From Turbatrix aceti (Eukaryota > Nematoda > Chromadorea > Rhabditida > Panagrolaimidae), in assembly GCA_963969345.1 (NCBI GenBank), contig OZ017766.1, positions 12,586,001 to 12,650,000 of the forward strand: 64,000 nucleotides of DNA, in the 5' to 3' direction. Shown in pieces: positions 14,398-60,102 of this stretch. How positions within the stretch are numbered: the stretch's first letter is position 1; each line of letters starts with the position of its first letter. The notes beneath the pieces were generated by a model. That model was not told the origin of the DNA, made no database searches, and worked only from the letters and a program-made list of their open reading frames with translations. Position numbers and translations under genes: made by a program.

Positions 14398-14399
14398 TA

Positions 14400-16667: not shown

Positions 16668-18239
16668 CGGGACAATCCCTACGTCAACGCCAGTTTGCCA
16701 AGAATTTGTGCCATTCTTATTTTTGTCAAGACTGAGTGTATTTTAGAGATTTGCATTTGTGCGATTTGGGGTAGTTGTTTTTGCTCGTTCATATGATTTT
16801 CCTGATCTTGATGCAAATAACTTCTTTTTTTTGTTCGTGACAAACAAGTGTAATGCATAAGACTCCAAAACGCATCGAAAAAAAGTGCAACGGTTGACAA
16901 AAAATATTTTTTTAAATGTTTTTATCATGCTATTTTGTAATTTTTTTTTAAACTTGGTTCTTAAGCTCGGGAATAATTTCAAAGCCAACAACCCAGGCTA
17001 TAAATTTCAAAGTGACAAATCGCTCTACTGTTTTTTACAAGATAAACATGAGTACATTTACATAAATACCAACCAATTGGTTAGTTAGTGAGCAAGTTGT
17101 TGTGACAGTTGACGTCAGGCATATATTCACATGAGTGATCAATTGTCTAGGTGGTTCCCTTGCCACTGGCTATCCTATCACCTGGTAGCGTTCTTTGTTA
17201 ATGAATATCCTCCACTTGCTGTTTTTTAAAATGCGTTCTTTGTTTTTTGAAAAAAATTGTTTTGTGAGTAGTTAAAAGAGTTTTTGAACTTAATTTTTAC
17301 GGTTTCGCAAACTTCAAATATTCTTTCAAATTTTTTGTCCTTTGTATTCCCATTTATTAGTTTTTTATGACCTGCCATCAAAAAATTCAAAGGTAAATAA
17401 CTTTTCGCTAATTTTATTGTCGTCAAAAACTCTTCCTTCTTTCTTTCTTACGTTTCGTTTCAATGCGCCTGTCTTTTTTTTTATCTCATCCCCAAATTTA
17501 ATTGCACAATTCTCCGGATTGTACTTTCAACATGATTAGATATAACTCAAAGAGCACAATGCCATCCTCTCTTTTCTTTCCTTGTTGCAACAAAAAAAAC
17601 ATTTATTTATGTATGTATTTCTTCCTTATTGAAGCTTTTGAATTTGCAAAAATTAAAGAAAAGAGGAAAAAGTGTTCTTCTTTGATTATTTTTTCAATTA
17701 GCGCATTGCTTTTTTTATGCGGCAGTTTTTTTGAAACAAGATGAATCACACGTGATTGACGCTATTTTTGACACTTTTTGTTGATGCAAAAAAAATAAGA
17801 AAATACAAAAAATTTTTCTGCAAGTGAATACAAAAAAAAATAAATTGTTTTTTTATTAAAAAATGTCATACATTTTTAAACAAACGGTACACATGTTTTC
17901 AATACGTTACACTTTATCAAACAAGCATTACACTTTTTTAATCAAATGCGTTACACTTTTTACAACAGAAATATTTCTCGACTGTATCATACACGATACA
18001 TTTTTGTATTAAAAAAAACACGATATATATTTCAAACTTTAACAGAATTCAACTTTTATTTTTCTAAATTAAAAAACTGCCTTTTTTTCAACGCGGAAGA
18101 AACAAACACCACCATTTTTTAACATCCTGAATCTGGTATTTCCACGTTTTGAATGAATAATTATTACTTTCTTCCTCTCCCCCGCTGCAGTTATGTAGCA
18201 AGCACGGCTCAGTCAGCAGTCATCCGGCATTCTTGCATA
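16668..18239. other. Intergenic DNA upstream of the protease homologue
   Basis: No gene is supported. The first few hundred bases should hold the promoter of the minus-strand protease homologue, but I see no clear TATA box. GTTACACTTT motifs recur at about 17905-17965. Confidence 0.5.
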
Positions 18240-19824
18240 CAGTAGCGCCGAAAAGTTTAAGTGCAAACATTAATTTGCACCGTGCATTGTTCAAACGTAT
18301 TGGTTTAGGCTCAAAATTTTTTTGATAAGCATCCTAGTGTATAGCCTTAGTATTGCCAAGTTTCAGATGGATTCGCTCAAAAATGTATTTTTGGCATATC
18401 GATTTATACAATGCGCGCGCCGAAAAGTTTAAGTGCAAGATGCTTTCTTTGCAGTAATAAAGCACATTTTTATGTATCATAGTTTTTGTTACGTTTTTAT
18501 CACTTTGTATCAATGTTTTATTGATTGAGAACATATTTCGCGCAATACATTGATTTGATCGAGAAAATGAAGATGGCAACAGCTCATCTCAAAAATACAC
18601 CCTTCTAGGGAGGTTTCGAAGGCTCTGGACGTCGAGGATTTAGTTTTTTTTATTCCAGTAGTGCCTAAAATGAAAGCAGTAATAGTCTACACAACGTACA
18701 AGAGCAGCCAACCCTCCGTTGACACGAAGGGCGGCGATAGAAAAATTTTTTTGATGTTGAGGTAGAGCTTCGAGCTGGCTCAAGTTGATAAAAATGAGAA
18801 TCGCAAAAAACGCGAAGGTGGTAAAATTAGTCCTGTGGTTCTAAAACAATGCCTACACGCTGCCAAACATAAATGATAACAATTCACCGCTTATCCACTC
18901 GTTTCCGCAGAGAACAGGGAGATCAAACTAGATTTCATAACTAAACGTCAACATTGAAAAACTGAGCATTTGAAAAAAGTCTTCTGTGGCCACAAAAGTG
19001 GAGTGAAACGGTTTTGTTATTATGTTTTGTAGTACGCTGATTGTTTGCAATACAAAAAACCATATTCATAATATTTTTTTCCAATCAATTGTCATCTATT
19101 CTAAAATTCCGATGTTGTTATTTTTCGAAGTTACAAGTTTATCGTCCCGTTCTCTGCGGAAACAAGTGGATAAGGGGAGAATTGTTGTCATTTATATTTG
19201 GCAACTTGTAGGCAATGTTTTAGAACCACAGGACTAATTTTACCACCTTCGCGTTTTTTGTGATTCTCATTTTTATCAACTTGAGCCAACTCGAAGCTCT
19301 ACCTCAACATCAAAAAAATTTTTCTATCGCCGCCATTCGTGTCAACGGAGGGTTGGCTGCTCTTGTACGTTGTGTAGACTATTACTGCTTTCATTTTAGG
19401 CACTGCTGGAATAAAAAAAACTAAATCCTCGACGTCCAGAGCCTTCGAAACCTCCCTAGAAGGGTGTATTTTTGAGATGAGCTGTTGCCATCTTCATTTT
19501 CTCGATCAAATCAATGTATTGCGCGAAATATGTTCTCAATCAATAAAACATTGATACAAAGTGATAAAAACGTAACAAAAACTATGATACATAAAAATGC
19601 GCTTTATTACTGCAAAGAAAGCATCTTGCACTTAAACTTTTCGGCGCGCGCATTGTATAAATCGATATGCCAAAAATACATTTTTGAGCGAATCCATCTG
19701 AAACTTGGCAATACTAAGGCTATACACTAGGATGCGTATCAAAAAAATTTTGAGTCTAAACCAATACGTTTGAACAATGCACGGTGCAAATTAATGTTTG
19801 CACTTAAACTTTTCGGCGCTACTG
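18240..19824. mobile_element. Foldback element FB2, same family as FB1, 1585 bp
   Basis: Same ends as FB1 (CAGTAGCGCCGAAAAGTTTA and reverse complement), flanked by TA at 18238-18239 and 19825-19826. It has the same total length, the same arm sequence with scattered substitutions, and the same central spacer. Arms are about 18240-18920 and 19145-19824. The near-identical length of the two copies shows that the palindromic form itself was mobilised, rather than each being built separately. Confidence 0.9.
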
Positions 19825-20624
19825 TACATACGTGATTTTATGCTCTAACTTGGATAATGGATAATCACAAGACTTCAAACCCCCCTTTTTTCTTTTTTTT
19901 TGCTTCCATTTCAAACTTGTCTGGTTGACTGGAAGCTCTTGTACCCTGTGACCATGGAAGTAAGTAAGTATGTATTTAGTTAGTACACAGGGTACAGTGG
20001 TGTGCAAAGTATATAGTATTTATTACCCCAGGGAATAATTAGAGTGTTACTCAACTCGTCGGGGGTCTTTCTTGTCTTGCATCAGTCCGTGACCGGTTAC
20101 GAATATCTTTATTTTCTGTTATCACGCACCTGGTGGATTTTAGGAATGAATCCTTGTTCTGTATTTTCATATGTAGTCTGATCCAGGAATATGTAAATTT
20201 GTTTTCTTCGTGACTGGAAATTTTTTTGTACAAAGATTTCGAAGAATGTTTTTGTAATCAGACATCCGTTGTTTCTAAAAAAAAATTTATTTTTACCTGA
20301 GCTTAACATTTCAAAAACGTTAAGCCTACAATTTTTTATCTTGAAATTATTATAATTAATTAAGAAAATTATTTTCGGATTAGCTGTTATATTTACATAT
20401 TTTTCTAACAGATTAGAAATGACTTTAAAGGTTGTAGTACTTATGATGACTTTAAGTTCAAGAACCTTTAATAGTGACAGAAAAAAACTGGCATATCTCT
20501 TTTTTACTTCTTTTTAGAATTTTCGAAGCGTCAATTATTTATAAACATGTCGGTTGTTACCACCGGAAAAGTAGTTTGTGTCTGAGAAAAAAATATGTAG
20601 CGTTTTTTATGATAAAAAAAACAT

Positions 20625-24732: not shown

Positions 24733-25589
24733 AAATTTTTGGCACAAAATGCAGTTCTTTGTTTAAAAAAGCGTAATTGTTTTTTGTTGCTGTAAATTAC
24801 GATACTAAATACATTTTTTGTAACAAGTGTGCATTTGAAATTTTGTATCATTAAAAAAGTATACTGTTTTGGTGATCAAAGGATTTATAAATTTTTTATT
24901 TAATTTCATTTTTGACATTGTACTTTTTTTGTCCAAAAAATGTGTAACTCTAAAAACAATCCTAATATTATTGTATCCGACACACTTAAAAAAAACAAAA
25001 TGTTTTTTAGTATGTAAAACCATACAAAATCTTATATTCATAATATACTGCATCATTACTATTTTTATTTTGATCACACCCTGACCTTACCTTTCCCTAG
25101 TACGCCTGCCAGAATCACACTTACATGCATATTATTTTATATCCACAGCACACAAAATTCTGCTTTGGTCTTTAATTATCAGCTTCTTTTTGGCTTCCAA
25201 GTAACATTGTCGACTTTTCTCCCTTTTTCACCACCACCGTTCGGCATACACTGATTACTGCCTACATTCTTGTTTCTGGCTTCAGATGTAACCTTGCATC
25301 TTTCATTTTTTTTGCACAGGAAAATTGAAATTTGTCATTTTCAAGGATTTTTTATCGGAAAGATTATCGGGGAGGGGTGGGATAAGACAGAGCAAAAAGA
25401 GGACGTTTGTGCCGAGTCTTATCCTTTTTTTGCAATAAAGTTTTTTTTCGTATTTTTAGAATAGTTTTCAGATTTTAGAAAGTAGGGGTTGCAAAGGTCA
25501 GAGATAAGATAAGCTTTGTTGCAGGTACGTTATTTGTATTAGATTTTTTAAAACAAAAGTATAACGTGGATTAAATTTTTTTTTAAATA

Positions 25590-27153
25590 CAGTGGTCTGC
25601 AAAAAGATAGGGCCACCCCCAAAAAGGGCGTTTCTGACGTTCGTTGAAGAGTTAGAAAAAATCTGTTTTGAGGAATGAATTCAGCGTCCCAGGAAACCCT
25701 AATAACGTTCTGATACCCGTGATTCAAAGTCGTTGTAAAAAAAAATTAAGCAAAGTAGGATTTTTTTGCTCTGCAAAAAGATAGGGCCACTTTGATAAAA
25801 AAAATCTTTGGAGACCAAGTTATTGACCAATACAGGAGTTACGGTATTATTTAATTACTAGCAGTATAACAAACATAAAAAATGTAGAAACCCGGTCGAA
25901 CAACCTGCGCTTTGATAGTCTGCAAGCCAATTCTCCCTATCGAGTACCTCAACATCGATTAGGGGATCCTGGTGGTCTGTTACGTGGTCGTATTGTCTTG
26001 TGTTGTTATAAAAAGTTTAGGTAGGGATGCAGTAAGTATTGTTATAATGATATAGGCATTAAACAGCGACATTAAAACCCCAGGAAAAAATTTTTTGTAA
26101 CTGAATTACCCTCGATTTTAACGATTTCCGGTACATCCACGCGTGGTTTGGTTGAAATAGGTGCGGTTTAAAGCGCTTTTGTGCATGAATGTTTAGAAAC
26201 AAGCTGTAGGAACATTTTGGTATGATTTTGAATTTAACCTCGGGTGTAGTAATATCAGCGAGAAGTGTAGCGTTTTGACTGAACCTGAGTAATTTATCGG
26301 CTATCAAAGTTAATTATGTTACCTATGATGAAAGCATGGTTTATTGCTTTTGTTGTGTTCTACAACCCTAAATAAGTATTTCAAAAACGAAGCAGAATTT
26401 TATACTCTATTGACGTCACCGAAAAGCCGATAGGAACTTTGACCTAAATTCGTAAAAAATTTCTGCTAAAATGAAAAACTCTGGGTGAACGATGCTTCGT
26501 TTTGGCTAAAGTGTCATGTACGCCAAAATGTTCCTACAGCTTGTTTCTAAACATTCATGCACAAAAGCGCTTTAAACCGCACCTATTTCAACCAAACCAC
26601 GCGTGGATGTACCGGAAATCGTTAAAATCGAGGGTAATTCAGTTACAAAAAATTTTTTCCTGGGGTTTTAATGTCGCTGTTTGATGCCTATATCATTATA
26701 ACAATACTTACTGCATCCCTACCTAAACTTTTTATAACAACACAAGACAATACGACCACGTAACAGACCACCAGGATCCCCTAATCGATGTTGAGGTACT
26801 CGATAGGGAGAATTGGCTTGCAGACTATCAAAGCGCAGGTTGTTCGACCGGGTTTCTACATTTTTTATGTTTGTTATACTGCTAGTAATTAAATAATACC
26901 GTAACTCCTGTATTGGTCAATAACTTGGTCTCCAAAGATTTTTTTTATCAAAGTGGCCCTATCTTTTTGCAGTGCAAAAAAATCCTACTTTCCTTAATTT
27001 TTTTTTACAACGACCTTGAATCACGGGTATCAGAACGTTATTAGGGTTTCCTGGGACGCTGAATTCATTCCTCAAAACAGATTTTGTCTAACTCTTCAAC
27101 GAACGTCAGAAACGCCCTTTTTGGGGGTGGCCCTATCTTTTTGCAGACCACTG
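25590..27153. mobile_element. Foldback element FB3, TA-flanked, 1564 bp
   Basis: Perfect terminal inverted repeats begin CAGTGGTCTGCAAAAAGATA and are flanked by TA at 25588-25589 and 27154-27155. The arms (25590-26222 and 26521-27153) mirror each other almost completely, leaving a spacer of about 300 bp. The same 51-residue frame occurs in both arms because they are copies of each other. The ends differ from FB1/FB2, so this is a second Tc1/mariner-like foldback family. No transposase is encoded. Confidence 0.9.
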
Positions 27154-27155
27154 TA

Positions 27156-30100
27156 TATTCGTAAAAAAATTTTCAGAATTCGTTCTTCTTTTTTTTGCTT
27201 TTACAAATCGGGTTTTGGGACAAAAGTTTTAACTTTTTTGACACAACCAAGACCCGCTTTTTTTAAATTTAAATTTTGAATTGTTGTAAAAATTTTGTTC
27301 AAAGTGTAAATTTTAAAATGCTTTGCCTGTTTTTTTTTTGCTTATAATCTGCAACTTTGTCTATAAACTTTCCGTTGTTGACATTTGCAGTTCCAAAAAA
27401 TCCAGCTGCTAATATCTTTTAAAAAATAACACAAACATCTGATAAATTCAAGATGCAGCATTTTAATAGAAAACATGTCTATAAACATAACACGATTTGT
27501 TTACACCCTCCTGGTACCGTAATCCAGATTGCAATAAATATATGCTTGAATGCCATGACCGATGGCATTTTGCTGCGTGCATACTAACACAAGATTAAAC
27601 CCCCCTCCTTCTGATACATCATCAACGTCAGTTGAAAGATTGCTTTCTGTACATACATATTATGTATCTCCCCGATTGCCCCCTGCGTGTACGAATAACT
27701 ATCCAGACAGTTGTTTCCAACATTTATAATTTTTTTCGGCTTATGAAAGCTCGGATTTTTGATATCACAGAGATTTTTGAGGTGTCGTGACACCCAGAGG
27801 ACCGACGCTCATAAATTTTAAAAATTAAATCACGTAATTTTAAAAGCTTTTGAAATTTTGTTTCGAATTTATATAGTTGCCGTCACTTTCATAAATTTTG
27901 GCAATGGTCTGTCGTCTACTTCCTTTTTTTTCAAAATTTTGTCTAGGTGGTAGCATACTAAATAAATAATGGCAAAAAAAATTTATAAATGTTACAGTTT
28001 TTTCTAACATTTTTAAAGCAATTGAAAATTTTTTCAGTTCCAATTTTTAGAATTTCCCAAATTATCTATTGCTAGACTTTTTTAGACAACTGTGTTTTGC
28101 GCACTTGTCTGTCTAAAATTTCCAATGTCCCTAATGCACTTCCCTTGCCTATCGTATCTTTTATCTACGAGGTATCAACACACTAGGGGCTAAGATAAAT
28201 GAAAGGCCAATGCCGTAGGACTCATCTATTTTTCTTCTTACTCTACGTCACCAAGCGCAATAGTGCATACATGCGTGCCAGGAGAAATGTTTTCAACAGA
28301 AAAAATTCATCGCCTCCTTATCTTTCCAGACATCTATCTACTTTTTTTTCTTTTTCCCGTTATCTTGATACATAGCCTCCGGAGCAGAGTTTCCTGCCTG
28401 CCTTGTTTATCAGTCCATCACCAGAACGTCAGGACTCACCCAGGACGGTACAGTCAGTCAGTACACTCTATGCAAAAAAGATCGCTTACGTACTTACTTA
28501 GATTTATTGAATGTTGCCCTGGGAGGTTGGTTGATGGACTGACTTTTTTATGGCTTTTTTGGTTTTGGTCTGGGTGGTCGGTTGCACGGAGCAACGGCAA
28601 ATGAGTGATGGATTTTTATGGGAGCTCCCGATCATTTTTATATTTTTTTGGACAAAAAATGTTTTTTTTCCAAAAACTTGATTTATGGCATGCCGGAAGT
28701 TAATGTACATATGTATACTTTTCTGATTCTCACAAGGAAATTGTCTTCTTTTTTATGTGATTTTGAAATGAGGTAGTGAAATAGTATGTATTTTTTATTG
28801 ACGTTAGGCAGTGTTCTTACTAATGCTTGAACAGAAATTTCATACTATCTATATTTTTTTTGTTCGTCAACAATTTTTTTTTGAGGTAACTAAATATGTA
28901 CACTAAATCAAAGCCAAAGCTTGAAACAAAAAAGTTTTTTAGCATTGTCATTTCTTTTGTTTGTTACCCCGATTTAGTATAAAAAAAACATCAATGAAAC
29001 CAGGAAATTTCATGCACTGGAGGATTTTGTAAATAGTTTTGTGTGAAATTTTTTTTCAAAAAAAACAAGTTTTTGGTAAGTAAAAATTTCTAAAGAAAAC
29101 TGAATGAAACATTATAAAACATTTTATAATTTAGATTTTAACAAAACTTGTTATTATTGTTTGTATAACAAAAAAATCAAAAAAACTTGTTTTTTAAATT
29201 TCTCTAACAATTTATTTAATCTCATAATAAATCTGATATTGTAAACCTCCACTGACTCACTTGCAATGAAAAAAACTAATGCCATTTTATTCGAAAAATG
29301 AGTGCACCTCATTTTTTGGCTTCTGTTTTTTAATGCCACCTTCAATAAAAAAGGGAGTTCACCGGCACTGAAAACACTTCGTTATATTTTTTTGCATTTT
29401 GAATCGTAATTTTTAATTTCAAAAAAAAAATATTTTCAATTCATTAAAAATTTGGCTGAGTTACATAGCTTGGCCTCTAGCCGAAATATCCGCCTGTATT
29501 AGACACTGGTCATATCCCAGATTTGTTTTTCTTTATCGTTTCTTCTAGCCGCCCCCCTCCCCCCCATCGGCGGTGTCAAATGTCTTTTCTTTCAACCGAC
29601 AGTCCTTTTTTTTCCTTCTTTAGTACACAGTGCCCCCAGTCAGCAAGCCGTCCAGCGAGTATGCCTCCAGGCACTCAGACCACTTCACATTTCTTCAATT
29701 TCCTGATTTTTCACACTTTTTTTTCTTAACGCCTGGTTACGCATTTCCTGCCTCATGTTTGTTTGTTCGTTCGTTCATGAGTGCCGCTTTTGTTCTGGGA
29801 AACCCATCCGACAACAAAAAATAAATAGTAAAAGGGTTTTCTATAGTTTCTACCGTAATCAGCGTGTCTGCAGACGTGTATACATTCACTTTCATTTTTG
29901 AGTCGTTTTTTTCCTCCAAATTCTCACTTTTACACGCCAAGAAGCGTTTTTGAAAAGAAAAAAACTCAGGTATGTACGTGCGAGATAAAAAGAGACAGGT
30001 GTATTTTACGTTTTGTTATACTTTTTTTTCGCTTCAATTACCATCTTTTCATCGCCTTTTCTTTCCTAAAATGAATGTTCTTGAATGTCGAAAAAAATCC

Positions 30101-47460: not shown

Positions 47461-47870
47461 TAGGGTTCGAACCCCCCCCCCCCCCCGCCCCCGCGGGGAT
47501 CCCCGCGGGGGTGAAGCCGGGGGTGGCCCCCCGACCCCCGCCCCCGACCATTTGTGACCCCCGTCGGGGAGTAAAACCCCCGCCCCCGACAGTGAGCAAA
47601 ATTTAGCGTTAAACACGGAAAAACGTTCAAAAACAACACAAAAAGGCAAAAACAGAGCAAAATACGAAAAATGTGTTCAAAATATGCCTCGGTTTTCGTT
47701 TTAAGATAAAATTGACACCTTTTTTTTATTATTTTTCATAGGACTCGGGGGCAATTACCCCCGTCCCCGCCGACTTCTGCCCCCGTCGGGGGCAGAATTC
47801 CCCCGCCCCCGACACCTCTGCCCCCGACTACCCCCGTCCCCGACCCGATACGGGGGGGGTTCGAACCCTA
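47461..47870. mobile_element. hAT-like MITE, 410 bp, G/C-tract-rich
   Basis: Terminal inverted repeats TAGGGTTCGAACCCCCCC at the left and the matching reverse complement at the right bound the element. It is flanked by an exact 8 bp duplication GTAAGTTC (47453-47460 and 47871-47878). An 8 bp target duplication with TAGGG ends is the mark of hAT transposition. Inside are two clusters of C- and G-runs built on CCCCGAC and CCCCGTC, separated by about 170 bp of AT-rich DNA. There is no transposase. In this AT-rich genome the element stands out as an island of very high GC. Confidence 0.88.
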
Positions 47871-47889
47871 GTAAGTTCACGTGTACATG

Positions 47890-48880
47890 AGGCACACTGC
47901 ATGCGCTTTCGCCTTATTTCTGCTCAATCGAGCGCGCGCGTGCATTTTTTTGAAGGTGTCGTGTTCAAAAAAAGGCCCTGAAGCCAGTAATAGAGTTTTT
48001 TGCTTACGGTCACTTGGGTAGGCTTAGGCATGTCCCAGAGATTGTTATAAGCCATCGGCGGTCATTGTCGGATTTTTTTGTGCAATGTTACAGACATTGG
48101 AAGAACATGAAATTTCCTGAGACTGTAACTCACCAGAACATCTGTGAATTTTTGAAAATCGAACGTAACTTTTTTCATTACGTCTATAAGAAGCAAATTA
48201 CGTGAGATGTGCCGTAGCATTATAGTAGTATGCGAGATCGAACGCAAAATGATAAAAAATGCGCACGCGCGGTGAACAACAAGGGAGAATTTTGAAGAAA
48301 AGCAGAAAAAAAGCTCTATTCGATGTTCCTGCAGCGAATGAATTTTAGCCAAAAGTCGGAATCTAAGAGAGTGTATCTTTTCTTATCCATCTGATTTCTT
48401 TGGTTCTTTTTCATTTTTTATATTCATTTTGCTTTCTGATATGCAAGTACCAGCAGAAGGAACGCAATAATGAACGTTTTTTTCATATACGACAATAGGC
48501 GCGTGCGCATTATGAAGCACGTATTCTATTTTGGGTTCGATCTCGCATACTACTATAATGCTACGGCACATCTCACGTAATTTGCTTCTTATAGACGTAA
48601 TGAAAAAAGTTACGTTCGATTTTCAAAAATTCACAGATGTTCTGGTGAGTTACAGTCTCAGGAAATTTCATGTTCTTCCAATGTCTGTAACATTGCACAA
48701 AAAAATCCGACAATGACCGCCGATGGCTTAAAACAATCTTTGGGAAATGCCTAAGCCTACCCAAGTGACCGTAAGCAAAAAACTCTATTACTGGCTTCAG
48801 GGCCTTTTTTTGAACACGATTCATTCGACGCGCGCGCGCGCTCTTTTTCGTCCATTGAGGCAAAGGCGCATGCAGTGGAG
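47890..48880. repeat. Long inverted repeat FB4 (~1 kb)
   Basis: The arms, about 47895-48250 and 48529-48877, are inverted copies with scattered mismatches, around a spacer of about 280 bp. Shared landmarks are CACTGCATGCGC at the outside, GGCCCTGAAGCCAGTAATAG, and GCATACTACTATAATGCTAC towards the inside. I find no clear target duplication, so it may be an old foldback element or a local inverted duplication. A frame starting MLRHISRNLL in both arms is arm DNA, not a gene. Confidence 0.85.
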
Positions 48881-49092: not shown

Positions 49093-50465
49093 ATGGATCG
49101 CCTTCAAAAGCAGCGTGAAGAATTCCAGAGAGGAATCGAGCGAAACATTGCTCGACCGTCGAGTGATAGCAATCTCACGCGTCTCGATCGCAAGCCAGCA
49201 AAGAAGAAGCAGACGACATCGACGACACAAAATGCCGCCAACGATAGCCTGAAGAATCTCAAGAGTCTTCCCAACTTTGACTACTCCACGGGAAAGGTGG
49301 ATACGACAGCGGGACCCTCGCATTCCGTTACTGCGGGAAGCAATCAGTACTTTGCTGCGATGGCACGAATCGTGGATTACATGAAAAAGCGTCACCTCGA
49401 AAATCAGCATTGGTACCTCTCGCTTCATGATTGCCTCGATGAAATGCGTTCTGGGCCACTCGATAAGAAGACGGAAGCCTGGCTCCGCGAAATACTGCCT
49501 CAGAATCCAAGGCTTCAGTTTGAGGGGGATAAATTTGCCTTCAAGCCGCCGTACAAGATCAAATCCGACGCTCAGATAATTGCACAGCTCCAGAAACACT
49601 ACCGAGACAGCAAGGGTGCTATTTTGCTTTCTGAGTTGAACGAGTGCTTTGCAAAGGCTGAAGAAAGGATGGAAAAACTCGCGCCACAGGTCGTCATTAT
49701 TCCTTGCCTGGTATGTTTTCGTGTTAAGGCATTTTTAAAAATTTCTTTTTGAGAAACTTTCTAATTTTCGTGTTAGGACAACTTTTATAATTTTTGTGTT
49801 GAGATCATTTCTATATTTTTTCCGAGACAATTTTTGTGCCGAGACCACTTTTTCTGATTTTCGAGTCGAGACATTTCTAATTTTTTTTCTAGAGACATTT
49901 TTTTATTTTCATGTCAAGACCATTTTTTTAATTTTTGTGTCGAAACTGCTTCTATTAATTTTCGTGTTAAGACACTTTGTATTTTTTTATTTTTATGTCA
50001 GGGCAACTTTTCTAATTTTCGTGGTAGGATCAATCACTTTTTTAGTAATTTTAGTGTTGAGACACGTTCTAATTTTTTGTGATACAATAGCGTCATTCTT
50101 CGTTTTGAGACAACACTTTTTTTCTAACTTTTGTCTTAGGACACCTAAAATCTAACCTTAATTTCTTATTTTTTTAGGTAGGGAAGAAAAAGGACAAGGC
50201 CTACTTCTTCAACGATCCCGAAGTCGGCATAACCGTTGAAGAAGATTTCAAGACACTCTGGAGGACTTCGCATGTCCAGAGTCTCGACGAGAAGCAGATC
50301 GACGAGTATCTAACCAAGCACGGCCTCAGCATCATCAAGGAACAGGGCATCAAGAGGCTCAATCATGGACCTGGAAAGCGGAAGCAACAGCGCAGGCGAC
50401 CGACGACCAAGCTTCAGAATACCCATATGGAGGGTATTCTCGAGGAATACATGACCGGCGATTAG
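49093..50465 (+). CDS. TFIIE beta subunit
   Basis: Two exons, 49093-49710 and 50178-50465, join in frame to 301 residues (human TFIIE-beta 291). The protein acts with TFIIE-alpha at RNA polymerase II promoters to recruit TFIIH and help open DNA. Residues 1-75 are charged and Ser/Lys-rich. Two winged-helix domains follow: the first includes YFAAMARIVDYMKKRH and LREILPQNPRLQFEGDKFAF, the second KSDAQIIAQLQKHYRDSKGA. The stretch VVIIPCLVGKKKDKAYFFND spans the intron. The basic tail is GPGKRKQQRRRPTTK. The intron (GTATGT...TTTTTAG) is made of minisatellite-like repeats. A T-rich acceptor ATTTTCAG at 49071-49078 precedes the ATG by 14 bases, so I reject an in-frame upstream ATG at 48955 as outron or intron. 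Codons 102 onward are repeated downstream at 52639. Confidence 0.95.
49711..50177 (+). repeat. Intronic minisatellite of TFIIE-beta
   Basis: The intron consists of about a dozen diverged 30-40 base units of the form TTCGTGTTRAGACA followed by a T-rich stretch with CTAATTTT. It is repeated without visible change at 52954-53420 in the second copy. Confidence 0.8.
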
Positions 50466-51005
50466 GAAATTTTAAAGTATGTTTTAGTTTTACATTTAAT
50501 TAGAAAAATTATGAAATTTATCGACTTTTTTTATTGCGAAATTATTTTCACGCATTTTTTTTAAATTTATTTGCACTATTTTTACACATTTTTTTATAAA
50601 ATTTATTTGAACTCAAATTTTTCTCAAAACTTATTTGCAATTTTGTTTTTTACTGAATTTGTAAAATTGGGTTGAAAAAACGGTGTTGTTATTTTATAAA
50701 AAAGGAATTTTCGTGCCAGGACCCATTTTTTTCCAAAATATTTTTTTCTAGATTGTTTACAAAAATGTTTTTTTTTAGTTTTTTTGAACGATGCCAATTC
50801 ACTCCTACCCCACCAATCGTCCTTCACCTACCCCTTCGATCCGCTTGACAATAAGCAAAAAATATTTATGTATCAACACGCATCCAACCATCATCAGTCA
50901 TTGACTTTTTTTCGGTTGTTTTGGGTTTGTAAAAAAAGTATTCATAAAGTTGTAAAAAATACAATTGTTTACCAAAACTTGAATTTTGCATCCAGATTTA
51001 AATAT
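50466..51005. other. Spacer between convergent TFIIE-beta and glycine-rich genes
   Basis: AT-rich 3' flanks of the two genes; no gene. Its right-hand copy is 53709-54248. Confidence 0.7.
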
Positions 51006-51725
51006 TTAGTTTGATGAGATTGAAGGAACACCGGTAGGGGGAACACCCGAAGGTCCAGGTCCGACACGGGCTCCGAAACCAATTGGGACCCCCGATGGGG
51101 GTGGGCCTGATGGCGGGGGTCCAGATGGGCGAGCACTGTCACTGTCGGCATTATGGCCGAAGAGACCAAACAGGCTGAAGCGTTTACCGCGATACTGTTG
51201 TTGCTGGTAGCCGCCGCTGCTGCTGCTGCTACTGTAGCCCTGAGCGTTGAGGGGAAATTGGGTTCCTGTAGAGCCTCCAAAACCGCCGCCGAAGCCGCTT
51301 TGACTACCCGTGTTGCTTCCAAATCCACCGAAACCGGTGTTTGTGCCCGAGCTACCGTAACCGGTGTTTGTGCCAGAGCTACCGTAACCGGTGTTGGTAC
51401 CGGAGGTACCATATCCGGTGTTGGAGCTACCGTAACCGGTTTGGCTACTTCCATAAGTACCGACTTGGTTACCGTAACCTCTGGTAAAGCCACTTTGACT
51501 GCCAGTATTGGTACCTGAGCTACCGTAACCAGTATTGGTACCAGCACTACCGTATCCGGTATTAGTACCATAGCTGCCATATCCACTTTGACTTCCAGAA
51601 CTGCTTCCGTAGCCACTTTGACTGTTTTGACTGCCACCAAAGCCGCCTCGGCTTCCTCCAAAACCGCCTCTAAACTGGGCAGAAGCGAGCAGGAAACAAC
51701 TAGCGAAGAGAACGATCTTCATCAT
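51006..51725 (-). CDS. Secreted glycine-rich repeat protein, copy 1
   Basis: A 239-residue single-exon protein. Residues 1-17 (MMKIVLFASCFLLASAQ) are a signal peptide. Residues 18-165 are a low-complexity repeat of GYGSSGTNT and relatives, rich in Gly, Ser, Thr, Asn and Tyr, like some cuticle, silk or adhesive proteins. Then a QQQQYRGKRF motif contains a dibasic KR that a furin-type protease could cut, followed by SLFGLFGHNADSDS and a Pro-rich tail with repeated SGPPPSG. I do not recognise a named family. The gene at 55920-57050 is a relative and the one at 54249-54968 an identical copy. A TTTTTTAG acceptor five bases before the ATG and a TATA box at 51872-51881 suggest a short 5'UTR intron. 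Confidence 0.85.
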   Translation of the reverse strand: MMKIVLFASCFLLASAQFRGGFGGSRGGFGGSQNSQSGYGSSSGSQSGYGSYGTNTGYGSAGTNTGYGSSGTNTGSQSGFTRGYGNQVGTYGSSQTGYGSSNTGYGTSGTNTGYGSSGTNTGYGSSGTNTGFGGFGSNTGSQSGFGGGFGGSTGTQFPLNAQGYSSSSSSGGYQQQQYRGKRFSLFGLFGHNADSDSARPSGPPPSGPPPSGVPIGFGARVGPGPSGVPPTGVPSISSN

Positions 51726-51871
51726 GTTTCTAAAAAACCCCGACTATAATTTTTTTTTGAAAAAAAAATTCCGCGATATGAAAAAAATATAGGAACCAGC
51801 AACTGACTTCCCCCGATGACAGTTAACCCAACCATAGGATCTCGAATGCTTCATATCCCCATTCCACTGAC

Positions 51872-51881
51872 CCTTTTATAG
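51872..51881 (-). promoter_or_regulatory. TATA box of glycine-rich copy 1
   Basis: CTATAAAAGG on the minus strand, about 150 bases upstream of the start codon. Confidence 0.65.
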
Positions 51882-52638
51882 TTCCACCGACCCGTGATTC
51901 GGATTCGGATTGACATGGTGTATACACAATTGCGTCTGTATGCATGCACATACATGGGAGGTTTTTTGATCGTTGCTATGCGCGTCTCCCTGCGTCAGTA
52001 GTTCCTTCCTGATTTGAATATTTGTATAGCCGACAGCTGGTATGATTCATAGACGATCCCGGAAGCTTATATGGTAAATATTTTGAAAGAGGGTGAATCA
52101 GAACGCGGGTTGTATACAGTGACTGTGTTTGACGTAAATTTTTTAAATCACAAAAAGGTTCACAAATACATAATATTGTTTGGAGACTGACTTGGTTGAT
52201 TGTTTTGTGGAATTCCAAAAATGAGTAACAACACGGAACGGTTACGTTCATTTTTTGGGGCTAGGGAAAATTGCATAACATGAACAAAAAATGTTGCGCT
52301 TTTTTTATTATAAAAATTGTAACATAAAGTGTAACGTTTTTAATAAAGGGATTTAGAATAAACAAAAAAATTGTTTCAAAAACGTTACACTTTTGTGTGT
52401 AACGTTTTTTGTAAAAACAATACGTATATTGAATGTAATGCACTAAATTCAAATTTGTTATAAAAAGTGTAACGGTAATAGTTTCACGTTTTTGCCGTCA
52501 GAAAAATGTCCCAATCATTAACCCACCCATCAGCCCATAAAACAACAAGCAGTATTGTTTATTATCAACGCAGTATGTATGTATGTGTTTGACAATCAAT
52601 CAGTGATACAAAAACAGCACACAAAAAACTTCAATGCA
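51882..52638. other. Glycine-rich gene upstream DNA with GTTACACTTT repeats
   Basis: No gene is supported. AAAGTGTAACGTTTTT at about 52328 and AAAAACGTTACACTTTT at about 52380 form an inverted repeat, and GTGTAACG recurs nearby. Copied at 55125-55881. Confidence 0.6.
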
Positions 52639-53708
52639 CTCGAAAATCAGCATTGGTACCTCTCGCTTCATGATTGCCTCGATGAAATGCGTTCTGGGCC
52701 ACTCGATAAGAAGACGGAAGCCTGGCTCCGCGAAATACTGCCTCAGAATCCAAGGCTTCAGTTTGAGGGGGATAAATTTGCCTTCAAGCCGCCGTACAAG
52801 ATCAAATCCGACGCTCAGATAATTGCACAGCTCCAGAAACACTACCGAGACAGCAAGGGTGCTATTTTGCTTTCTGAGTTGAACGAGTGCTTTGCAAAGG
52901 CTGAAGAAAGGATGGAAAAACTCGCGCCACAGGTCGTCATTATTCCTTGCCTGGTATGTTTTCGTGTTAAGGCATTTTTAAAAATTTCTTTTTGAGAAAC
53001 TTTCTAATTTTCGTGTTAGGACAACTTTTATAATTTTTGTGTTGAGATCATTTCTATATTTTTTCCGAGACAATTTTTGTGCCGAGACCACTTTTTCTGA
53101 TTTTCGAGTCGAGACATTTCTAATTTTTTTTCTAGAGACATTTTTTTATTTTCATGTCAAGACCATTTTTTTAATTTTTGTGTCGAAACTGCTTCTATTA
53201 ATTTTCGTGTTAAGACACTTTGTATTTTTTTATTTTTATGTCAGGGCAACTTTTCTAATTTTCGTGGTAGGATCAATCACTTTTTTAGTAATTTTAGTGT
53301 TGAGACACGTTCTAATTTTTTGTGATACAATAGCGTCATTCTTCGTTTTGAGACAACACTTTTTTTCTAACTTTTGTCTTAGGACACCTAAAATCTAACC
53401 TTAATTTCTTATTTTTTTAGGTAGGGAAGAAAAAGGACAAGGCCTACTTCTTCAACGATCCCGAAGTCGGCATAACCGTTGAAGAAGATTTCAAGACACT
53501 CTGGAGGACTTCGCATGTCCAGAGTCTCGACGAGAAGCAGATCGACGAGTATCTAACCAAGCACGGCCTCAGCATCATCAAGGAACAGGGCATCAAGAGG
53601 CTCAATCATGGACCTGGAAAGCGGAAGCAACAGCGCAGGCGACCGACGACCAAGCTTCAGAATACCCATATGGAGGGTATTCTCGAGGAATACATGACCG
53701 GCGATTAG
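52639..53708 (+). pseudogene. 5'-truncated TFIIE-beta copy, possible chimera
   Basis: Codons 102-301 of TFIIE-beta in two exons (52639-52953 and 53421-53708), with the donor, repeat-filled intron and acceptor intact. The promoter, start codon, N-terminus and most of the first winged helix are missing. By chance the reading frame stays open across the duplication junction to an ATG at 52579. Spliced translation from there would give 220 residues beginning MYVFDNQSVIQKQHTKNFNA and then ENQHWYLSL. Whether anything drives transcription is unknown; the upstream DNA is the flank of a gene on the other strand. Best treated as a pseudogene unless RNA shows otherwise. Confidence 0.85.
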
Positions 53709-54248
53709 GAAATTTTAAAGTATGTTTTAGTTTTACATTTAATTAGAAAAATTATGAAATTTATCGACTTTTTTTATTGCGAAATTATTTTCACGCATTT
53801 TTTTTAAATTTATTTGCACTATTTTTACACATTTTTTTATAAAATTTATTTGAACTCAAATTTTTCTCAAAACTTATTTGCAATTTTGTTTTTTACTGAA
53901 TTTGTAAAATTGGGTTGAAAAAACGGTGTTGTTATTTTATAAAAAAGGAATTTTCGTGCCAGGACCCATTTTTTTCCAAAATATTTTTTTCTAGATTGTT
54001 TACAAAAATGTTTTTTTTTAGTTTTTTTGAACGATGCCAATTCACTCCTACCCCACCAATCGTCCTTCACCTACCCCTTCGATCCGCTTGACAATAAGCA
54101 AAAAATATTTATGTATCAACACGCATCCAACCATCATCAGTCATTGACTTTTTTTCGGTTGTTTTGGGTTTGTAAAAAAAGTATTCATAAAGTTGTAAAA
54201 AATACAATTGTTTACCAAAACTTGAATTTTGCATCCAGATTTAAATAT

Positions 54249-54968
54249 TTAGTTTGATGAGATTGAAGGAACACCGGTAGGGGGAACACCCGAAGGTCCA
54301 GGTCCGACACGGGCTCCGAAACCAATTGGGACCCCCGATGGGGGTGGGCCTGATGGCGGGGGTCCAGATGGGCGAGCACTGTCACTGTCGGCATTATGGC
54401 CGAAGAGACCAAACAGGCTGAAGCGTTTACCGCGATACTGTTGTTGCTGGTAGCCGCCGCTGCTGCTGCTGCTACTGTAGCCCTGAGCGTTGAGGGGAAA
54501 TTGGGTTCCTGTAGAGCCTCCAAAACCGCCGCCGAAGCCGCTTTGACTACCCGTGTTGCTTCCAAATCCACCGAAACCGGTGTTTGTGCCCGAGCTACCG
54601 TAACCGGTGTTTGTGCCAGAGCTACCGTAACCGGTGTTGGTACCGGAGGTACCATATCCGGTGTTGGAGCTACCGTAACCGGTTTGGCTACTTCCATAAG
54701 TACCGACTTGGTTACCGTAACCTCTGGTAAAGCCACTTTGACTGCCAGTATTGGTACCTGAGCTACCGTAACCAGTATTGGTACCAGCACTACCGTATCC
54801 GGTATTAGTACCATAGCTGCCATATCCACTTTGACTTCCAGAACTGCTTCCGTAGCCACTTTGACTGTTTTGACTGCCACCAAAGCCGCCTCGGCTTCCT
54901 CCAAAACCGCCTCTAAACTGGGCAGAAGCGAGCAGGAAACAACTAGCGAAGAGAACGATCTTCATCAT
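54249..54968 (-). CDS. Secreted glycine-rich repeat protein, copy 2
   Basis: Identical 239-residue translation to the gene at 51006-51725, including the signal peptide, repeat region, YRGKRF motif and Pro-rich tail. It lies in the right copy of the tandem duplication with its own TATA box and acceptor, so it should be as active as copy 1 if the duplication is real. Confidence 0.85.
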   Translation of the reverse strand: MMKIVLFASCFLLASAQFRGGFGGSRGGFGGSQNSQSGYGSSSGSQSGYGSYGTNTGYGSAGTNTGYGSSGTNTGSQSGFTRGYGNQVGTYGSSQTGYGSSNTGYGTSGTNTGYGSSGTNTGYGSSGTNTGFGGFGSNTGSQSGFGGGFGGSTGTQFPLNAQGYSSSSSSGGYQQQQYRGKRFSLFGLFGHNADSDSARPSGPPPSGPPPSGVPIGFGARVGPGPSGVPPTGVPSISSN

Positions 54969-55114
54969 GTTTCTAAAAAACCCCGACTATAATTTTTTTT
55001 TGAAAAAAAAATTCCGCGATATGAAAAAAATATAGGAACCAGCAACTGACTTCCCCCGATGACAGTTAACCCAACCATAGGATCTCGAATGCTTCATATC
55101 CCCATTCCACTGAC

Positions 55115-55124
55115 CCTTTTATAG
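55115..55124 (-). promoter_or_regulatory. TATA box of glycine-rich copy 2
   Basis: CTATAAAAGG on the minus strand, the duplicate of the one at 51872-51881. Confidence 0.65.
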
Positions 55125-55919
55125 TTCCACCGACCCGTGATTCGGATTCGGATTGACATGGTGTATACACAATTGCGTCTGTATGCATGCACATACATGG
55201 GAGGTTTTTTGATCGTTGCTATGCGCGTCTCCCTGCGTCAGTAGTTCCTTCCTGATTTGAATATTTGTATAGCCGACAGCTGGTATGATTCATAGACGAT
55301 CCCGGAAGCTTATATGGTAAATATTTTGAAAGAGGGTGAATCAGAACGCGGGTTGTATACAGTGACTGTGTTTGACGTAAATTTTTTAAATCACAAAAAG
55401 GTTCACAAATACATAATATTGTTTGGAGACTGACTTGGTTGATTGTTTTGTGGAATTCCAAAAATGAGTAACAACACGGAACGGTTACGTTCATTTTTTG
55501 GGGCTAGGGAAAATTGCATAACATGAACAAAAAATGTTGCGCTTTTTTTATTATAAAAATTGTAACATAAAGTGTAACGTTTTTAATAAAGGGATTTAGA
55601 ATAAACAAAAAAATTGTTTCAAAAACGTTACACTTTTGTGTGTAACGTTTTTTGTAAAAACAATACGTATATTGAATGTAATGCACTAAATTCAAATTTG
55701 TTATAAAAAGTGTAACGGTAATAGTTTCACGTTTTTGCCGTCAGAAAAATGTCCCAATCATTAACCCACCCATCAGCCCATAAAACAACAAGCAGTATTG
55801 TTTATTATCAACGCAGTATGTATGTATGTGTTTGACAATCAATCAGTGATACAAAAACAGCACACAAAAAACTTCAATGCACTTTTGATTGACTGCCTAA
55901 AGCAAGGCACAGGTTCCAT

Positions 55920-57050
55920 TTAGCTACTTGCAACCTGAGGGGCACCACTAGGGGGAGCACCGGTGCGACCACCACGGCCTCCACGACCGTTAGGGGCTCC
56001 AGATGGCGGGGGACCGGAGGGGCGAGCGCCGTTTTTGCTCTCTTCGCTGCTGCTGCTGCTGCCACCGAAGATATCGGAGAAGCTGAAGCGCTTTCCGCGG
56101 TATTGTTCTTGCTGGCTGCTGCTACCTGAGATACCGGTGTTAGTACCTGAGACACCGGTGTTGCTATCATATGTTCCGGTATTGCTTCCAACGCTGCCGG
56201 TATTAGATCCAAAGCTGCCGGTGTTGTTGCGAGAACCGAAGCTGCCGGCGTTGGTGCCAGAGCTCCCAGTGTTCGAACCAAAGCTACCTGTGTCAGAGCT
56301 TCCGGTGTTGCTACCAAAAGTGCCGGTGTTACTGCTAGAACTGCCAGAGTTGCCGGCGAATCGTTTTCCACGGTATGTGATGCTACCTGAGCTGCCGGTG
56401 TTAGTACCGTAGGTGCCGGTGCCAGTGCCAGAGCTACCGTAGATTCCGGTGCCAGTGCCCGAGCTACCGTAGGTGCCGGTGCCAGTGCCCGAGCTACCGT
56501 ATGTGCCGGTATTGCTACCGTAGGTACCTGTGCCAGTGCCAGAGCTACCGTAGGTTCCGGTATTGCTTCCGTAGGTTCCGATGCCAGTGCCGGAGCTACC
56601 GTATGTGCCGGTATTGCTACCGTAGGTACCTGTGTTGGTGCCAAGGCTGCCGGTGTTACTTCCATAAGTGCCGGTGTTGCTACCGTAAGTTCCGGTGTTA
56701 GTTCCCGAGCTACCATAGGTTCCAGTGTTGCTACCATAAGTGTTAGAGGACGGAATACCGAAACCGCTAACGTTTCGTGTAATTCCTCCGATACCGCTCT
56801 GGACTCCACCAAATCCAGTCTGGTTGATTCCGAAGCCTCCGATGGCACCTTGGCCAATCTGGCTGCCACCATAGCTAGTCAGGTTTCTCGTACCAATCTG
56901 GCTTCCTCCATAGCCAGTTGCACTGCCAACCGATCCGGTGTTGCTGGCACCGTAAACGCTACCACTGCTACCGTAAGTGCCAACGCTGTTGCCGCTGTAC
57001 TGGGCAGTAGCGATCAGGCAACATCCTGCGAAGAACACAATCTTCATCAT
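55920..57050 (-). CDS. Secreted glycine-rich repeat protein 3, larger relative
   Basis: 376 residues in one coding exon, starting MMKIVFFAGCCLIATAQ, a signal peptide close to that of the neighbouring pair. The middle is a long array of GTYGSSGTGT, GTYGSNT and related units (about residues 105-215), then SS/SNTG repeats. There are two YRGKRF motifs, one after SGSIT near residue 220 and one after QQEQ near residue 315, against one in the smaller relatives, so two KR cleavage sites could release two or three pieces. The tail after SFSDIFGGSSSSSEES is Pro/Gly/Arg-rich with SGPPPSGAP. TATA box at 57159-57170. A good donor GTGAGC at 57123 and acceptor TTTTCAG mark a 69-base 5'UTR intron (57055-57123), ending four bases before the ATG. 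Confidence 0.87.
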   Translation of the reverse strand: MMKIVFFAGCCLIATAQYSGNSVGTYGSSGSVYGASNTGSVGSATGYGGSQIGTRNLTSYGGSQIGQGAIGGFGINQTGFGGVQSGIGGITRNVSGFGIPSSNTYGSNTGTYGSSGTNTGTYGSNTGTYGSNTGSLGTNTGTYGSNTGTYGSSGTGIGTYGSNTGTYGSSGTGTGTYGSNTGTYGSSGTGTGTYGSSGTGTGIYGSSGTGTGTYGTNTGSSGSITYRGKRFAGNSGSSSSNTGTFGSNTGSSDTGSFGSNTGSSGTNAGSFGSRNNTGSFGSNTGSVGSNTGTYDSNTGVSGTNTGISGSSSQQEQYRGKRFSFSDIFGGSSSSSEESKNGARPSGPPPSGAPNGRGGRGGRTGAPPSGAPQVASS

Positions 57051-57158
57051 TTTTCTGAAAATTTGAAACATAAATATTTTACAAAAAATTGATAGGTTGA
57101 ACTACTCGAGATCAAAGGCTCACGATTAGCCTGCTTGTAAATCCATGCTTTCTCCAGC

Positions 57159-58470: not shown

Positions 58471-59404
58471 TTTTCAGACACCATCCTGCTGTTCAAGAAG
58501 GGAGACGCAGCAAAAATCGAGAACTACCGCCCGATTTCCCTGCTGTCGTCGCTGTACAAGGCCGCAACCAAAGTGATCAAAAGCCGCGTGCAACGGCAAT
58601 GCGAAGAAGCCTCGGCCATACCACCGGAACAAGCAGGTTTTCGAAAGAAGATGTCAACGACGACGCAAATTCGCGCGCTGAACATGCTGGCGGAAAAGTG
58701 TGGAGAGTTCCAACTTCCGCTTTACGCCATCTTCGTCGACTTTCGCAAGGCTTTCGACACCATCTCGTACGACGCCATCTGGCGTTCTTTACGAGCCATC
58801 GGAGTCGAGGAACCACTGGTGCAGTACATCCAGCTCCTCTACGCCAACAGCATGCTGTCTGCTGTACGTGTAGGGGACATCGCTGCCTGCTTTGCCACTC
58901 AAAGGGGTGTTCGCCAGGGAGATTCACTTTCCCTCCTCCTCTTCATCCTTGTCCTCCAGTCTGTGCTCAATAACATTGACTGGTCAAATCGAGGATTCCA
59001 AATTGGCAGGCCCCGACTCTGCTACCTTGCCTACGCCGACGACATTGCGCTCCTGGCACCAGATGCTCCCACAGCTCAAGCCATGCTGCAAGACCTGGCC
59101 GACGAAGCTCTCTCTGTCGGTCTGGAAATCAACATCGGCAAGACCAAGTGGATGAGCAACTCGAAAGACGACGCGACGATTCTGCTGAACGGTTTTCCGG
59201 TCGAAAGAGTAAAAGGACAGCTCTTCTCCTGGCCGAGAGACCACAAGAAAGAAATTGTCAAAAGAATGACGGCAGGACGAAAGGCGTATTTCAAGTACAA
59301 AGACTTTCTGCGCTCACGCAAAGTCAGAATGGGTCTGAAACGGCGACTGATCGAGCAGTGCATCAAGCCCGCAGTAATCTACGGCTGCGAAACCTGGGCA
59401 CTTA

Positions 59405-59896
59405 GGGCTTGTCCAGAAATTACGTCATTGCAAGAGGGGGGGAGGGGGGTCAGTCCAAAAATGACGGAAAATGATGGAGGGGGGAGGGGGGTACTGCCCA
59501 AAATGACGTCATTAAAAAATTTCAAGAATTGGCTTACGGATTTTCTAAATTTCAATTTTTTTGCCTAAATGAGCTGAAAACTGACTGTTTTTGCTCCAAA
59601 ATAATTATGTTTTACCAATCGTTTTTTAATGACCGACTCCGAACAGGTTTCTTAAAAAAACACAATAACTACACAATAATTTCGGCATATACTAGTTTTG
59701 GAAAGTAGTTTTTAGCAAAATTGATAAACCAAAACTTGCAAAAAAACACAAAAAAATGACAAATTGCTTTTCAAAATGACGTCATTTAGGGGGGGGGGGT
59801 CCGGGGTGCCCCACCTTGCAATGACGACCGATGACAGAGGGGGGAGGGAAGTAAAAAATCACCGATTTTGCGATGACGTAATTTCTGGACAAGCCC
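59405..59896. mobile_element. PIF/Harbinger-like MITE, 492 bp
   Basis: Perfect terminal inverted repeats of 24 bases begin GGGCTTGTCCAGAAATTACG, flanked by a 3 bp TTA duplication at 59402-59404 and 59897-59899. TTA targets and GGG-starting ends are typical of PIF/Harbinger. Subterminal G-runs (GAGGGGGGAGGGGGG) and AATGACGTCATT motifs face inwards. It has no transposase. It cuts the RTE reverse transcriptase inside the codons for WALT. Confidence 0.9.
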
Positions 59897-59902
59897 TTAC
59901 CG

Positions 59903-60102
59903 NNNNNNNNNNNNNNNNNNNNNNNNNNNNNNNNNNNNNNNNNNNNNNNNNNNNNNNNNNNNNNNNNNNNNNNNNNNNNNNNNNNNNNNNNNNNNNNNNN
60001 NNNNNNNNNNNNNNNNNNNNNNNNNNNNNNNNNNNNNNNNNNNNNNNNNNNNNNNNNNNNNNNNNNNNNNNNNNNNNNNNNNNNNNNNNNNNNNNNNNNN
60101 NN
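59903..60102. other. Assembly gap (200 N)
   Basis: A run of exactly 200 N within the RTE element, probably a placeholder of arbitrary length. Confidence 0.99.

Follow-up and report, generated by a model that had tools for sequence, protein, structure and literature searches.

Genes and features at the locus

The window analyzed here, that is, the whole 64,000-nucleotide stretch of the Turbatrix aceti assembly (contig OZ017766.1, positions 12,586,001 to 12,650,000 of the forward strand), contains a TFIIE-beta gene and a glycine-rich gene within or overlapping two adjoining copies of a 3,243-bp unit. The features considered below, in positions of the window, were the following:

47895-48877, no strand assigned: long-inverted-repeat transposon of 983 bp with a 6-bp target-site duplication (GAGGCA), to the left of the unit and not within it
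49093-50465, + strand: complete TFIIE-beta gene encoding 301 aa in two exons (49093-49710, 50178-50465), with a match to Pfam TFIIE_beta (PF02186) at E 6.5e-11
49396-52638, + strand: copy 1 of the unit, comprising the intron and codons 102-301 of TFIIE-beta together with the entire glycine-rich gene and the 913 bp of spacer upstream of it
51006-51725, - strand: glycine-rich gene, copy a, encoding 239 aa, with an N-terminus that is signal-peptide-like by eye
52579-53708, + strand: predicted chimeric ORF, opening with ATG at 52579 and 20 novel codons that lead into TFIIE-beta codons 102-301; the first exon ends at 52953 and the second covers 53421-53708
52638-52639, no strand assigned: novel junction, joining the glycine-rich upstream spacer to TFIIE-beta codon 102, with CT microhomology and no N
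52639-55881, + strand: copy 2 of the unit, identical to copy 1 throughout, the match running 2 bp (CT) past the right end
54249-54968, - strand: glycine-rich gene, copy b, identical to copy a
55920-57071, - strand: glycine-rich paralogue in tandem, diverged to 49-57% amino acid identity in matched pieces, outside the duplicated unit
59903-60102, no strand assigned: scaffold gap of 200 N, the right end of the contig holding the duplication

The TFIIE-beta gene runs from the ATG at 49093 through an intron at 49711-50177 to complete 301 codons and a stop, its exon limits having been judged by eye from GT/AG signals and the open frame. The core winged helix of the TFIIE_beta family was recognized in its product (42.8 bits with PF02186, cut-off 28.1), while the second winged helix (PF18121) scored 18.4 bits, under its cut-off of 26. 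The match in the PDB set was a TFIIE-beta chain of 291 aa (29vf_X, E 8.8e-36), and the best named relatives were those of panagrolaimids (53-57%). For the glycine-rich protein, the Pfam search found no domain. At least four matches to it were obtained (7,990 candidates scored), two named as bacterial or DUF7666 and the remainder unnamed or hypothetical; with 41-67% coverage and low complexity, they were not accepted as homology.

The duplicated unit and its junction

Direct comparison of 49396-52638 with 52639-55881 (3,243 bp each, head-to-tail) resulted in 0 differences, and an exact 3.2-kb tandem repeat as such is not due to chance. The match between the units extends by 0 bp on the left and by 2 bp (CT) on the right, leaving 2 bp of microhomology. 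The two head-to-tail copies thus share a single novel junction, as in true tandem segmental duplications, and in line with the same class this junction is gapless within the contig and devoid of long flanking homology (2 bp only), as in duplications not formed by non-allelic homologous recombination (NAHR). Microhomology of at least 2 bp is expected at unrelated breakpoints 17-18% of the time, and its use as a pathway signature was therefore dropped. According to the DNA search, the 59.93-Mb assembly contains these two full copies of the unit only (4 of 4 candidates scored); the 7 other listed matches to the unit were of 55-110 bp and 71-82% identity, the majority falling inside the glycine-rich gene or at its start. 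Neither the DNA search (4/4 candidates scored) nor one with the TFIIE-beta protein (5/5) turned up the unit elsewhere, be it as a third copy or as a haplotig, and over its first 1.55 kb the right flank matched nothing but itself among the 40 of 396 candidates that were scored.

The first base of the unit is that of TFIIE-beta codon 102 (CTC), in exon 1, and copy 2 therefore lacks codons 1-101, a loss that takes away helix 1 of the first winged-helix domain. No gene was lost, as the left copy preserves TFIIE-beta in full. The predicted chimeric ORF on the extra copy comprises 220 codons and scored 29.6 bits with PF02186, starting at profile position 18. Lacking codons 1-101 and carrying 20 in-frame codons of its own, the extra copy resembles a partial or chimeric duplicate; an in-frame ATG such as that at 52579, and with it the 20 codons, arises by chance in 27% of simulated trials. 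It is improbable that a new chimeric gene has just been born here, with the glycine-rich upstream region acting bidirectionally and driving a 220-residue TFIIE-beta minus helix 1 of its first winged-helix domain but with the rest retained, no base having changed yet; if this were so, the worm would have an altered basal transcription factor alongside the intact one.

The preliminary description of this DNA had reported two unchanged 3,243-bp blocks placed head-to-tail, a junction with 2 bp of microhomology, the doubling of the glycine-rich gene and the creation of a TFIIE-beta copy without codons 1-101, all of which agree with the comparison of the two units, the identical copies at 51006-51725 and 54249-54968 and the start of the unit exactly at codon 102. 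Its title, in which the duplication "beheads" TFIIE-beta, was misleading, since the left copy is still the full gene, and on the extra one an in-frame ATG opens a predicted chimeric ORF of 220 codons.

A young tandem duplication or an assembly error

Nearly all of the assembly is contained in five scaffolds of 11.4-12.7 Mb, and the GC content is 37.6-40.6% in the stretches examined. The contig holding the duplication is 69,994 bp long and ends 4,019 bp past the match, at a 200-N gap. A self-comparison was performed on a 264-kb block at the end of a single scaffold, equal to 0.44% of the 59.93 Mb. All gaps in this block (6/6) are written as 200 N, and no other gapless exact tandem pair was found among its 35 repeat pairs (at least 300 bp, at least 90% identity), therefore the assembly seldom makes such pairs there. 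The scaffold end is gap-rich, with one contig's end matching its neighbour in inverted orientation, and an apparent retained haplotig was located ~110 kb from the duplication (C1:12499561-12512735 versus 12512936-12522445, across a 200-N gap). The apparent allelic pieces were 96.1-99.6% identical, i.e. 0.4-4% apart. This scaffold end, which includes the duplication, thus contains apparent assembly faults.

We consider a genuine, very young tandem duplication, presumably made by end joining or template switching, to be the best reading of the locus, with a probability of about two in three. One break would have fallen in TFIIE-beta exon 1 (codon 102) and the other in the spacer upstream of the glycine-rich gene, and either of these processes, using 2 bp of homology, would then have connected the right end back to the left one, possibly through polymerase-theta-type joining of an over-extended repair intermediate. 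No long flanking homology is involved, so NAHR would not have been the initiator. The outcome would be an intact TFIIE-beta, unmoved and with its own upstream region kept, two glycine-rich genes, each with 913 bp of upstream DNA, and a truncated TFIIE-beta lying beyond the glycine-rich upstream spacer in divergent orientation, with a putative in-frame ATG start. Selection would probably act little or not at all on such a duplication, which may as yet be polymorphic or limited to one haplotype. The 0 differences in 3,243 bp place divergence below 0.093% (95%), which is ~6% of the 1.6% obtained from the apparent allelic pair, and, at a rate of 2e-9 per site, limit the age to fewer than about 2.3e5 generations.

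Counting in favour of a real duplication are the sharp junction between exact copies, without N and contig-internal while the gaps of the block are all 200 N, and the consistency of the assembly in writing repeats, with 24 identical 983-bp transposons at separate places. According to PMC9516828, false duplications usually show gaps and read-depth breaks between copies and true ones do not. The size of 3,243 bp likewise fits the tandem duplications of C. elegans, which span ~100 bp-10 kb (median ~1 kb) in helq-1 mutants (PMC8654963); those of brc-1 and brd-1 cover 1 kb-1 Mb, the majority being of 10-20 kb (PMC7368036). The latter source gives no tandem duplications in wild-type C. elegans over 240 generations; they are thus rare in wild type, which weighs against a real duplication.

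A homotype assembly error, in which one locus entered the contig twice (by an uncollapsed read end, wrong overlap or gap filling) and the worm has one copy, is possible but rather unlikely. The exact identity of the copies speaks for it as well, given that an assembler copying one sequence twice would likewise give zero divergence, and the 2 bp of homology fit an accidental join equally well, both of which count against a real duplication. The distance of 4.0 kb (4,019 bp) to the contig end may also count against it, as do the apparent faults of that scaffold end (its richness in gaps, the apparent retained haplotig and the contig end matching its neighbour inverted); homotype false duplications cluster near contig boundaries, at ~read-length (PMC8081667), and incorrect gap filling sometimes joins false duplications gaplessly (PMC9516828). 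Nevertheless, there is no N at 52638/52639, whereas a gap between copies is usual, although not universal, in homotype errors and all 6 gaps of the 264-kb block are written as 200 N; the junction is contig-internal rather than at an edge, and the pair is the only gapless exact tandem one among the block's 35 repeat pairs. The preliminary description had offered a recent event or an assembly error as the two options, an either/or that was right, yet its two-haplotype variant was disfavoured, because the apparent alleles differ by 0.4-4% across an N gap while the unit copies are exactly alike and adjoin each other with no N in between. The chance that two alleles of one locus were placed in succession (a heterotype error) is therefore very slight, even with an apparent case on this same scaffold end (C1:12499561-12512735 versus 12512936-12522445): the apparent alleles there are 96.1-99.6% identical and N-separated, and zero differences in 3,243 bp would have p ~3e-23 at 1.6% divergence and ~2e-6 at 0.4%. 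The allelic divergence expected between such copies was absent (0/3,243 differ), an argument that a homozygous tract would evade; tracts of this kind cover ~7% of the genome in the panagrolaimid H. mephisto, according to PMC12354626. An older duplication held identical by gene conversion or unequal crossing-over is very unlikely too. Tandem copies are able to exchange, and the identity is uniform across exon, intron and spacer, but conversion would have had to reach both breakpoints sparing no site, and the adjacent glycine-rich paralogue (55920-57071) is just 49-57% identical in protein (matched pieces). Young age is the simpler explanation.

Related systems and the upstream transposon

The closest known systems to a genuine duplication are the spontaneous germline tandem duplications of C. 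elegans (brc-1, brd-1 and helq-1 mutants; polymerase-theta joining), which are likewise head-to-tail, of kilobase scale and with little or no junction homology; here, in contrast, there is a single event, smaller than most brc-1 events (10-20 kb), and 2 bp does not identify a pathway. The locus also resembles the young partial and chimeric duplicates of C. elegans (PMC2728529), among which about half of the young pairs are partial or chimeric with a median span of 1.4 kb: the unit cuts TFIIE-beta and carries another gene whole, its span is of the same order as that median, and a chimeric ORF is possible. Unlike in those described there, the copies here are fully identical, and truncation has affected a basal transcription factor of which an intact copy is retained. 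With the homotype false duplications described in PMC8081667 and PMC9516828, it shares identical copies, kilobase length and perhaps the position, here a few kb from a contig end, but differs in having no N gap between copies and in being contig-internal. If real, the locus would offer a duplicate gene pair at age zero, ahead of any substitution, in a nematode that is not a Caenorhabditis; one gene would be duplicated in full and a basal transcription factor in truncated form, and a putative chimera would already have its in-frame start. If false, it would be a compact illustration of how errors of this type raise the gene counts of chromosome-scale assemblies.

The 983-bp transposon lies ~215 bp upstream of TFIIE-beta and 518 bp to the left of the breakpoint. 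It was considered as a cause of the duplication and rejected: nothing in the sequence connects it with the breakpoint, and it was therefore left as a coincidence. The assembly includes 23 other identical copies of this element (24 in all, at separate places). Among the 11 copies checked for a target-site duplication, one had no exact one, one had a duplication of 7 bp, and the other 9 had one of 6 bp.

The duplicated unit and its genes

Direct comparison of the blocks at 49396-52638 and 52639-55881 yielded 0 differences across all 3,243 bp, and the match between them continued for 2 bp (CT) rightward and 0 bp leftward, in agreement with the unchanged tandem duplication and 2 bp junction microhomology reported in a preliminary description. 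The doubling of a glycine-rich gene and the loss of codons 1-101 from the extra TFIIE-beta copy, proposed in the same description, were also borne out, with the whole gene of 239 aa present in both copies and codon 102 being the exact first codon, and left edge, of the unit. Searches of the assembly (59.93 Mb, 28 scaffolds) with the DNA and with the TFIIE-beta protein found no further full copy of the unit. The genes involved were as follows.

49093-50465, plus strand: intact TFIIE-beta, ATG at 49093, two exons (limits set by eye), 301 residues
51006-51725 and 54249-54968, minus strand: glycine-rich gene, complete in both unit copies, each with 913 bp of upstream DNA
52579-53708, plus strand: chimeric ORF of the extra TFIIE-beta copy
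55920-57071: diverged paralogue adjoining the glycine-rich gene

An additional match to the glycine-rich gene (51%) was detected at position 9601722 of another scaffold (C4). TFIIE-beta was identified on the basis of its matches to PF02186 (E 6.5e-11, domain at residues 87-156), to a chain in the PDB set annotated as TFIIE subunit beta (E 8.8e-36) and to named panagrolaimid orthologues (53-57% identity). An AlphaFold2 model restricted to exon 1 (206 residues, 12 sequences, mean pLDDT 71.7) placed a helix at residues 82-102, preceding the remainder of the winged-helix domain (mean pLDDT of 78, 93 and 89 for residues 81-90, 91-100 and 101-110, respectively). Since the unit starts at codon 102, the extra copy would lack this modelled helix, as well as the N-terminal helix 3-19, and would retain the downstream part. 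The lost part holds 11 of the 34 invariant columns counted by hand in exon 1 among 12 aligned proteins.

In the extra copy, an in-frame ATG at 52579 is followed by 20 new residues and then codon 102, with the frame open up to the donor site. The predicted chimeric product (220 residues) narrowly passed the PF02186 cut-off (29.6 vs. 28.1 bits). Of 20,000 simulated spacers with the same base-step make-up, 27% carried an in-frame ATG without an intervening stop, so this start does not in itself point to function. The nearby ATGs at 52575, 52583 and 52634 are in other frames.

Real duplication or assembly artefact

The window corresponds to positions 12586001-12650000 of a 12,735,894-bp scaffold (C1), so that some 94-100 kb separate the duplication from the end of the scaffold. 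TTAGGC is the nematode telomere repeat; no array of it was found in the last 6 kb (C1:12729895-12735894, one copy on each strand), and the 12.7-Mb scaffold end is therefore not an assembled canonical telomere. The surveyed 264 kb (the window and 20 further 10-kb stretches) contained six gaps, each of exactly 200 N, and the following segments.

C1:12512936-12522445 (about 9.5 kb): apparent retained haplotig, repeating parts of the preceding contig (12499561-12512735) across a 200-N gap
C1:12575909-12645902 (69,994 bp): contig holding the duplication

Pieces of the apparent haplotig showed about 96%, 98.4% and 99.6% identity, plus an internal deletion; the two segments may be alleles. Its continuation matched the reverse of the next contig's end (C1:12534165-12535211, 99.6%), and C1:12499561-12523492 is probably a false duplication with mis-ordering at this scaffold end. 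False duplication thus appears close by in the assembly, but of a diverged and gap-separated kind. The unit described here was the sole gapless exact tandem pair among the 35 repeat pairs (≥300 bp, ≥90% identity) of the surveyed 264 kb. The preliminary description had proposed either a very recent event or an assembly artefact, the latter including two haplotypes placed in series. This last option is disfavoured, as the probability of 0 differences in 3,243 bp is ~3e-23 at 1.6% divergence (~2e-6 at 0.4%). The choice between a recent event and one sequence entered twice stood, and the published criteria conflict. Passages of PMC8081667 place such homotype false duplications near contig boundaries, with a length of about one read, and describe their copies as tandem with a gap between them after scaffolding. 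According to portions of PMC9516828, a gap most often separates false copies, incorrect gap filling sometimes joins them, and gap-type properties were not found for true duplications; in an excerpt of PMC7423139, assemblies of one heterozygous dataset show artefactual regional expansions. The junction contains no N, which by the gap criterion favours a real event, while the closeness of the contig's right end, 4,019 bp beyond the duplication, points to an artefact.

Age and possible origin

The absence of differences bounds divergence at <0.093% (95%), about 6% of the 1.6% apparent allelic value, corresponding to at most ~2.3e5 generations at 2e-9 per site. In the part of PMC8727991 consulted, 4.22e-8 is about 23 times the C. 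elegans wild-type rate (implied wild-type value ~1.8e-9), and the gene duplication rate of the C. elegans lines studied there is ~1e-6 per gene per generation, stated as not significantly different from wild type. At that rate a very young duplicate would be no great surprise, yet sections of PMC7368036 report 0 tandem duplications in 240 generations of wild-type C. elegans.

The 2 bp of homology, whose chance expectation is 17-18%, argues against an origin by homologous recombination of long repeats, but is equally compatible with end joining, template switching or an accidental join. The unit size falls within the range of tandem duplications in C. elegans helq-1 mutants. It is at the low end of those described for brc-1 and brd-1 in parts of PMC7368036. 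Joining by polymerase-theta is therefore inferred as a possible route. Among young duplicate pairs in C. elegans, roughly half have a partial or chimeric structure, and the median span is 1.4 kb (PMC2728529, in part); if real, the duplication would be one more case of this known kind.

Neighbouring repeats

The contig holding the duplication ends 2 bp beyond a dispersed repeat of ~500 bp (59402-59900), with short terminal inverted repeats and full-length matches at 90-95%. Other elements in the window were the following.

12810-14403: long inverted-repeat element
18238-19830: long inverted-repeat element
25573-27172: long inverted-repeat element
47461-47873: dispersed element, directly left of the transposon
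47895-48877: 983-bp transposon

The three long elements have arms of 650-692 nt (97-99% alike) and spacers of 206-302 nt, and same-shaped elements occur elsewhere in the surveyed 264 kb. The dispersed element was found in at least 39 other places at 86-94% identity (best 40 of 155 candidates). The transposon precedes the TFIIE-beta start codon by ~215 bp and has inverted arms of ~350 nt (92% alike) with termini CACTGCATGCGC. Among the best 40 of 305 candidates, at least 24 full-length copies, its own included, were 100% identical with full self-score (22 on five large scaffolds, and 2 on a pair of small scaffolds, 10 kb and 14 kb long). Judged from these sequences, a very recent or continuing burst is indicated, and the transposon may merit more attention than the duplication. 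Target-site duplications were of 6 bp in 9 of 11 copies and 7 bp in one, the remaining copy having no exact one.
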